Positions 25,201 through 28,200 of a DNA stretch of 64,000 bases are shown here, one piece after another. The stretch is from Polyodon spathula (taxonomy: Eukaryota; Chordata; Actinopteri; Acipenseriformes; Polyodontidae), in the NCBI RefSeq assembly GCF_017654505.1, contig NC_054536.1, positions 95,273,485 through 95,337,484 on the forward strand. The letters are read 5' to 3'. Position numbers and translations under genes: made by a program. The notes beneath the pieces are model-generated. The model saw nothing but the letters and a program-made list of their open reading frames with translations, did no database searches and was not told the DNA's origin. Position 1 is the stretch's first letter. Every line of letters starts with the position of its first letter.

Positions 25201-28200
25201 CGCAGAACCAAGGGGAAAGTATGGTGGCAGCACAATGACATCCCTGATGCCTCAACACAAACTACTACTACAACAAAATAAAATAATAACAAATCATCTC
25301 CCTTTACTGGAGATTTACAACCAAGAGCAACAAGCAGTCATCTTTATTAGCTGGTTGGTTTATACGCTATAATTTCACTATAATCTTCTCAGAGTGTTCA
25401 TTATGGATGCCAGTGCCAAAAATAATACAATGAAAACAGGTGATGGGATTTACCCTGGTAGACAGAATCTATGTGTAATACAATAAAATACAGTACATGT
25501 TCCAATGAAACAGCTAGGCCTGGTTTATAAACAATGCAATAATGAAAGACTCTGTTACCTGTGCTGACCACAGTACAATAATGAAAGACTGTTACCTGTG
25601 CTGACCAGAGTGCAATAACGAAAGACTCTGTTACCTGTGCTCACCAGAGTGCAATAATGAAAGACTCTGTTACCTGTGCTGACCAGAGTGTAATAATGAA
25701 AGAGACTATTACCTGTGCTGACCACAGTGCAATAACGAAAGACTCTGTTACCTGTGCTGACCACAGTGCAATAATGAAAGACTCTGTTATCTGTGCTCAC
25801 CAGAGTGCAATAACGAAAGACTGTTACCTGTGCTCACCAGAGTGCAATAACGAAAGACTCTGTTACCTGTGCTCACCAGAGTGCAATAACGAAAGACTCT
25901 GTTACCTGTGCTGACCAGAGTGCAATAACAAAAGACTCTGTTACCTGTGCTGTCCAGAGTGCAATAACGAAAGACTCTGTTATCTGTGCTCACCAGAGTG
26001 CAATAACGAAAGACTCTGTTACCTGTGCTGTTCAGAGTGCAATAACGAAAGACTCTGTTACCTGTGCTGACCACAGTGCAATAATGAAAGACTCTGTTAC
26101 CTGTGCTGTTCAGAGTGCAATAATGAAAGACTCTGTTACCTGTGCTGACCAGAGTTCAACAATGAAAGACTGTTACCTGTGCTGACCACAGTGCAATAAT
26201 GAAAGACTCTGTTACCTGTGCTGACCACAGTGCAATAATGAAAGGCTGTTACCTGTGCTGACCAAAGTGCTGGTGTTATAGAGCGTTCCCAGGTGGGGCC
26301 CAGACAGTGACAGGAACGTGTGCAGCTTGTTGAGGTAATATCGGAAGCGGGGTCGCGTCAGCACCGACCGAATTATGATGTTGCCCAGTGAATGCCCAAT
26401 GAAGCTTTGCGTAACAATCAAAAATCAAAACACAACACATTTCAAGATTTGCTTTAACATAATATAATCAAGTCTTTAAACTCATAAATGGTAAAAAGTT
26501 AACCCAAAACACTACTTCAAATTTAGCAGAGAGAAAAACAAGAGGACATAAATGGAAGCTGAACAAAGGTAAGTTTAGAACAGAAGGCAAGAAGCACTGT
26601 TGTTACACTGTTTTAAATACATAAAATCGTCTACTGGGTGAAGCAGTAGGATATAAAACACTGAGAACATTTAAAAAAGACTCCATTCTGTGTTTTTAAA
26701 TTAGACCCCCCCCCCCCCCCCCCCCCCACCCCCCCCCCCCCCGCCCTACAAGATGTTATTACTAATTGGTCTAACCAACCCCCACCCCCCCCCCCCCCCT
26801 TTCTCCCCCCCCCCCGCCCCCCCCCCCCCCCCCCCCCCCCCAGTGGACGTGTGCGAACATGGGACATGTTCTACATTAATGATTTAGATTCTGGTATAGT
26901 AAGCAAACTTGTTAAATTTGCAGACGACACAAAAGTAGGAGGAGTGGCAAACACTGTTGCAGCAGCAAAGGTCATTCAAAATGATCTAGACAAGATTCAG
27001 AACTGGGCAGACACATGGCAAATGACATTTAATAGAGAAAAGTGTAAGGTACTGCACGCAGGAAATAAAAATGTACATTATAAATATCATATGGGAGATA
27101 TTGAAATTGGAGAAGGAATCTATGAAAAAGACCTAGGAGTTTTTGTTGATTCAGAAATGTCTTCATCTAGACAATGTGGGGAAGCTATAAAAAAGGCTAA
27201 CAAGATGCTCGGATACATTGTGAAAAGTGTTGAATTTAAATCAAGGGAAGTAATGTTAAAACTGTACAATGCACTAGTAAGACCATATCTTGAATATTGT
27301 GTTCAGTTCTGGTCACCTCGCTATAAAAAAGATATTGCTGCTCTAGAAAGAGTGCAAAGAAGAGCGACCAGAATTATTCCGGGCTTAAAAGGCATGTCAT
27401 ATGCAGACAGGCTAAAAGAATTGAATCTGTTCAGTCTTGAACAAAGAAGACTACCTGGCGACCTAATTCAAGCATTCAAAATTCTAAAAGGTATTGACAG
27501 TGTCGACCCAAGGGACTTTTTCAGCCTGAAAAAAGAAACAAGGACCAGGGGTCACAAATGGAGTTTAGAAAAAGGGGCATTCAGAACAGAAAATAGGAGA
27601 CACTTTTTTACACAGAGAATTGTGAGGGTCTGGAATCAACTCCCCAGTAATGTTGTTGAAGCTGACACCCTGGGATCCTTCAAGAAGCTGCCTGATGAGA
27701 TTTTGGGATCAATAAGCTACTAACAACCAAACGAGCAAGATGGGCCGAATGGCCTCCTCTCGTTTGTAAACTTTCTTATGTTCTTATGTTCTTAAGACCT
27801 GGTGGGCCAAATGGCCTTTTCTTGTTCCAAAACATATTTTCTAATGCTACTTTGTTTTCAGCAGGCATTCACAGACAAGTCCCCCGTGATGTAGCAACTA
27901 GACAGACATAGAAGAGCAAACTGCTGTCTCTCTTTCATGCAGTTCTTTGAAACCACAAATCATGATAACAGGTCTTTCTATTATTTCCATTTTTTTTTTG
28001 AGCTTGGTTATGTCTCTGAGGGTCCCTGACTTGAGTTGTATGAAATACCTGATCAGGGCACTGATTTGAGTTGTATGAAATACCTGATCAGGGCACTGAT
28101 TTGAGTTGTATGAAATACCTGATCAGGGCACTGATTTGAGTTGTATGAAATACCTGATCAGGGCACTGATTTGAGTTGTATGAAATACCTGATCGGGGCA

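Follow-up and report, generated by a model that had tools for sequence, protein, structure and literature searches.

Within a 64-kb window of Polyodon spathula DNA (the whole stretch analysed, along which all positions are counted), the border between one FAM135B exon, here called exon M, and its following intron recurs as a tandem 39-bp minisatellite that is continuous with the authentic border and keeps a splice donor in most of its copies. By analogy with amphioxus, we interpret this array as likeliest a tolerated minisatellite of the type known as a mirage: the exon/intron border was probably duplicated and expanded, with the proximal donor mainly used and the downstream donor boxes acting at most as decoys. 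Arrays that repeat an exon border are already known from amphioxus, ABCA7 and IFI6, and what is unusual here is a companion array of acceptor tracts in the next intron.

Gene structure and conservation of the exon border

The window holds a FAM135B (DUF676) gene on the minus strand, and its eight C-terminal exons, joined at GT-AG borders, read through 1000 codons without a stop (a slash marks the splice point in the motifs below).

34362-32298, 32058-31892, 31414-31323 and 31070-30973, minus strand: first four C-terminal FAM135B exons, joined in frame
26404-26253, 24973-24863, 23297-23184 and 22247-22044, minus strand: last four C-terminal FAM135B exons, joined in frame
26253..26404, minus strand: exon M (152 bp), with GHSLG, donor CAG/GTAACA after 26253 and a weak acceptor, GCAAAG/C
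24863..24973, minus strand: exon N (111 bp), flanked by the donor-array intron and the acceptor-array intron
23184..23297, minus strand: exon O (114 bp), with acceptor TTTTCTCCTTTTGGTTTCAG/GA, score 8.7

Residues 720-1000 of this join are 100% identical to the best protein match, 'protein FAM135B-like [Polyodon spathula]', and the five matches ranked after it, sturgeon proteins and a second Polyodon protein, reach 98-99% identity. DUF676 occupies residues 1156-1349 of the whole Polyodon FAM135B-like protein (1.9e-57), and exon M, which was placed by the frame join and not by tblastn, matches the same Pfam domain (1.3e-12) and carries GHSLG, which supports the original prediction that this exon carries the catalytic Ser, here the predicted nucleophile. 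The acceptor of exon M, at 26404, has the lowest score of the eight that we scored (-2.3), so definition of this exon may be poor. Skipping exon N or exon O keeps the reading frame, while skipping exon M does not.

In each of the 14 fish FAM135B proteins that we aligned, which range from bichir to teleosts, exon M ends in S-T/A-L-V-S-T-G followed by LWLMQK (STLVSTG in 13, SALVSTG in one). These 14 sequences have plain M-N and N-O junctions, with no insert at either and no loss of exon N, and they are predicted proteins, in which decayed transcripts would not show. The best-matching Polyodon protein, likewise a prediction, has the junction of donor 26253 without an array insert and to that extent agrees with the idea that the closest donor wins. 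Conservation of this exon end in all 14 proteins suggests that the exon is older and the array derived, the direction of change having probably been from exon to array.

Anatomy of the 39-bp minisatellite

Exon M ends in CAG/GTAACA and continues straight into the minisatellite.

25535..26270, minus strand: 39-bp minisatellite (TRF: period 39, 19.1 copies, 90% matches)
25974..25996, minus strand: unit with a lost GT (GATAAC at 25983) and an extra CTG/GTGAGC

Cut at the border, each unit comprises 18 exon-end-like bases and 21 intronic bases (19 intronic in the 37-bp units), and the first copy starts with the exon M end itself (26270-26253), the copies being contiguous with the authentic border. 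We counted 19 donor boxes including the authentic one at 26253, with a spacing of 39 bp in 14 of 18 cases and 37 bp in 4 of 18. GT is kept in 17 of the 19, and every GT-keeping unit has AG/GT; the two boxes without it, at 25983 and 25790, read GATAAC, with AT for GT. Fifteen of the 16 downstream GT boxes are identical to the authentic donor in all nine letters, and the remaining one differs by a single letter. These counts confirm the tandem copies of a FAM135B exon/intron border, the continuity with exon M and the near-universal donor retention put forward in the original prediction, of which some details needed revision: the far end lies at about 25535 and not 25546, the first unit is indeed 37 bp but three more share that length, and the stretch shared between exon and unit is 18 bases long with 17 matching, instead of about 17 bases.

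The proposed exon origin of the array is supported by the match of the last 18 bases of exon M to the array consensus, which holds at 17 of 18 positions, whereas other sites on the minus strand, the strand that was scanned, reach 13/18 at most. The 18-mer GGTCAGCACAGGTAACAG, allowing up to 3 mismatches, occurs 19 times on both strands of the 64 kb, always inside the array, and in 100 dinucleotide shuffles it occurred 0.09 times on average and at most once.

Mean identity between units stays at 0.88-0.92 at each lag from 1 to 12, and this flat profile leaves a higher-order repeat unsupported, despite the additional 232-bp period reported by TRF. By cell count, the donor positions are less variable than the other positions of the unit (3/171 vs 42/570, Fisher p 0.005), but by column they are not (p 0.27). 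At the exon side, GCACTTTG and, at the far end, GCATTGT form a short direct repeat that may be a candidate seed of the duplication but is indistinguishable from a partial last unit.

Donor strength and consequences of downstream splicing

Duplexes with the U1 5' end, computed with that sequence taken as general background, have energies of -8.5 to -8.6 kcal/mol for the 17 GT boxes and -2.1 for the two non-GT boxes, and the donor of exon N is stronger (-12.4). The array also contains further donor-like sites, with last exonic bases at 25994, 25877, 25838, 25801 and 25645.

25639..25996, minus strand: five extra donor-like CTG/GTGAGC sites, U1 duplex -8.1 each

Donor-like 9-mers (at least 7/9, with GT) number 22 in the array, or 29.9 per kb, compared with 2.2 per kb outside the 11 listed arrays. 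RNA structure that would mask the decoys but not the authentic donor was considered and rejected, given 9-mer openness of 0.026 for the authentic donor vs a decoy mean of 0.018 and, with a larger window, 0.004 vs 0.007, which is no clear difference. Hairpins of isolated units came to -6.3 for the CUGUG unit, -2.5 for CUCUG units and -0.1 for the exon copy.

A premature stop follows from splicing at each of the 18 downstream boxes, with GT (16) or without (2): the 37-bp first unit shifts the frame, and from the second box onward the array itself contains a stop. If the first downstream box is used, 37 nt are added and the stop lies in exon N, 203 nt upstream of the last junction; for the later boxes it lies 263-881 nt upstream of that junction. 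Under the usual 50-nt rule, stops this far upstream would be subject to nonsense-mediated decay. The hint in the original prediction that a 39-bp unit might keep the frame therefore fails, and protein repeats added in frame through array donor boxes are ruled out for this allele. With every decoy donor leading to a premature stop, the decoys in this allele would only lower output and would add no protein.

A companion acceptor-tract array and other arrays

The intron between exons N and O (24862-23298) carries a second array.

23307..24314, minus strand: 44-bp minisatellite, 23 copies (TRF)

Its typical unit reads TTCAC-AG-TGTTTCCTCCTTT-CAG, that is, TTCAC, a pyrimidine tract and CAG, and the last unit merges without interruption with the tract of the real exon O acceptor (37-column match including a 2-base gap). 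Exon O itself has no match within the unit (score 14 vs a shuffle mean of 12.4, with 45 of 200 shuffles as high or higher), so we rejected an exon origin for this array: it matches only the pyrimidine tract of the intron, and its unit does not lie across an exon-intron boundary as that of a mirage does. Of 89 other AGs examined in the array, 26 score above 4 and up to 6.9, some of them two per unit, against 8.7 for the real exon O acceptor; all acceptor scores are approximate, with a matrix taken as general background. Splicing at these 26 decoy acceptors would give full-length in-frame inserts at 7 and a stop at 9 + 10, located 39 nt (9 sites) or 101 nt (10 sites) before the last junction. 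A 403-codon ORF (23131-24339) crosses the array in the frame of exon O.

The new element here is the position of exon N, with a donor-array intron on one side and an acceptor-array intron on the other, and a limited literature search, in the source portions available, found no pyrimidine-tract-acceptor array described beside a donor array. One could imagine that the two array lengths jointly set exon N inclusion and transcript loss, forming a two-sided VNTR splice rheostat with possible differences from one individual to another; we hold this to be improbable.

Related donor-like arrays precede exon M.

28026..28584, minus strand: 35-bp array in the intron before exon M, with 14 AG/GTATTT donor-like sites (TRF)
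30490..30642, minus strand: 36-bp array of a related unit, with 4 AG/GTATTT sites counted over 30490-30670 (TRF)

Both lie in one intron, about 1.9 kb apart, and share a 35/36-bp unit with CAG/GTATTT, for a total of 18 AG/GTATTT sites. Two of the seven arrays listed within the mapped gene are at most 9 bp from an exon, an outcome expected at 0.28% under random intronic placement (P 0.0028), in a test made after the pattern was seen, on arrays hand-picked from the TRF list and on exons mapped by tblastn from one protein with rows below 85% identity dropped, a list without exon M and without residues 1-103 and 186-227. Elsewhere in the window, a 220-bp exact tandem duplication (100%) at 36836-37279, 55 bp from a tblastn-mapped FAM135B exon edge, could be recent or an assembly artefact; a 4-kb minisatellite with a 32-bp unit in 125 copies spans 10674-14680; and long G/C homopolymer-like runs at 26706-26841, between exon M and a retroelement-like ORF, are possibly sequencing or assembly noise.

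Interpretation

The 39-bp array combines a unit that spans the border, contiguity with the authentic border and AG/GT in many units, as mirages do. Our preferred account, which we regard as probable, is that tandem duplication of a segment across the border of exon M and its intron (18 bases of exon, 21 of intron), followed by expansion through slippage or unequal exchange, gave rise to the array; a duplicated unit of this kind, since it spans the border, would carry the splice donor along in most copies. The spliceosome would mainly use the exon-proximal donor at 26253, leaving the 16 downstream GT boxes as decoys at most, whose rare use would lead to a premature stop and nonsense-mediated decay. 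Counting against so passive an array are the donor use reported for ABCA7 and IFI6, the five extra GTGAGC donors, the weak exon M acceptor and the less-varying donor letters (by cell count). Use of array donors and an effect of copy number on FAM135B splicing are both putative.

The main rival to a passive mirage is a mode like that of ABCA7, in which the array would be a working, length-dependent splice modulator: the many U1 sites and decoy acceptors around exon N would shift its inclusion or send transcripts to decay, so that output follows copy number. In its favour, the ABCA7 VNTR takes in the donor of exon 18, and skipping of exon 19 (132 nt, in frame) follows VNTR length (PMC5954066); exon N (111 bp) can likewise be skipped in frame, and the next FAM135B intron offers the 26 decoy acceptor AGs above 4 next to the real site at 8.7. 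However, none of the 14 aligned fish proteins has an insert at M/N or N/O or lacks exon N, the mirages of amphioxus are suggested to leave splicing undisturbed (PMC3087553), and in ABCA7 itself unit retention is constant with length and lower expression is not explained by decay (PMC5954066). We consider modulation by length unlikely.

Recursive splicing, in which each CACAG/GTAAC would serve first as acceptor and then as donor for stepwise removal of the array, could draw on the AG/GT of every GT-keeping unit, but as acceptors the 17 CACAG/G sites, counting the authentic border, have scores of -1.3 to 1.0, and the 72 array AGs examined reach 1.0 at best, whereas seven of eight real acceptors score 2.5 to 8.7, the exception being exon M (-2.3). 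As judged by the approximate matrix, a strong acceptor directly before the donor is absent, and we rejected recursive splicing as very improbable. We think it equally doubtful that the copy number is an assembly artefact: nearby G runs do look unreliable, and the amphioxus BflGb6 mirage is said to have been aberrantly assembled in the draft genome, but the units here differ from each other without any repeating block and so are not simple copies of one read. Finally, a coincidental exon match in an array born from intron or mobile DNA, conceivable in a window rich in other minisatellites, is disfavoured by the 17/18 match, the shuffles and the contiguity, and we give it the least credence of all.

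Returning to the tolerated mirage, 15 of the 16 GT decoys carry the nine letters of the authentic donor and all give premature stops, so the array would serve as a natural experiment on the choice of the spliceosome among many equal 5' splice sites. If only the proximal donor is used, exon context would override site strength; if spare donors are used, the message would most likely be spoiled without protein being added. With the acceptor-tract array in the next intron, exon N is suited to testing a two-sided influence of arrays on inclusion.

Comparison with known systems

The closest parallel is found in the amphioxus mirages of Adh3 and the globins BflGb6 and BflGb9, which are minisatellite-like tandem duplications of either exon-intron boundary, vary in length, carry AG/GT in many units, are suggested to be without effect on regular splicing and have been proposed as a source of new introns (PMC3087553). 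The FAM135B array likewise duplicates an exon-intron boundary and keeps AG/GT in many units, but it occurs in a vertebrate, has 19 copies where the BflGb6 haplotypes have 6 and 3, and is accompanied by an acceptor-tract array in the next intron of the same gene.

The ABCA7 intron 18 VNTR (25 bp, 23.7 copies) abuts exon 18 and includes its donor; retention of one unit, which shifts the frame, is seen at a level independent of length, and longer arrays show more skipping of the in-frame exon 19 (PMC5954066). FAM135B resembles it in that the array abuts an exon and includes its donor, in copy number, in the frameshift caused by using one unit and in having a next exon that can be skipped in frame. 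The ABCA7 unit, however, is described as starting at GT, and the available part of that source reports neither an exonic part nor an acceptor array; length variation and RNA effects were measured there, whereas the FAM135B array is known here from its sequence.

Two downstream repeats of the IFI6 (6-16) minisatellite are stated to serve as donors (PMC4526556), and Turri 1995 is cited for its multiple splice donors (PMC4526556, PMC2572611). FAM135B repeats similarly supply several donors after an exon, with the difference that all the downstream ones would give premature stops. Internal tandem repeats that may shift a splice border are also known from exon-intron boundaries in human segmental duplications (PMC2812944); these share their position at a splice border with the FAM135B repeats but average 30-bp units and 4 repeats and were found by comparing human paralogues. 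Seen beside these cases, FAM135B offers a fish example of a minisatellite that probably arose from an exon border, and the amphioxus mirages, ABCA7 and IFI6 then look like one recurring process.
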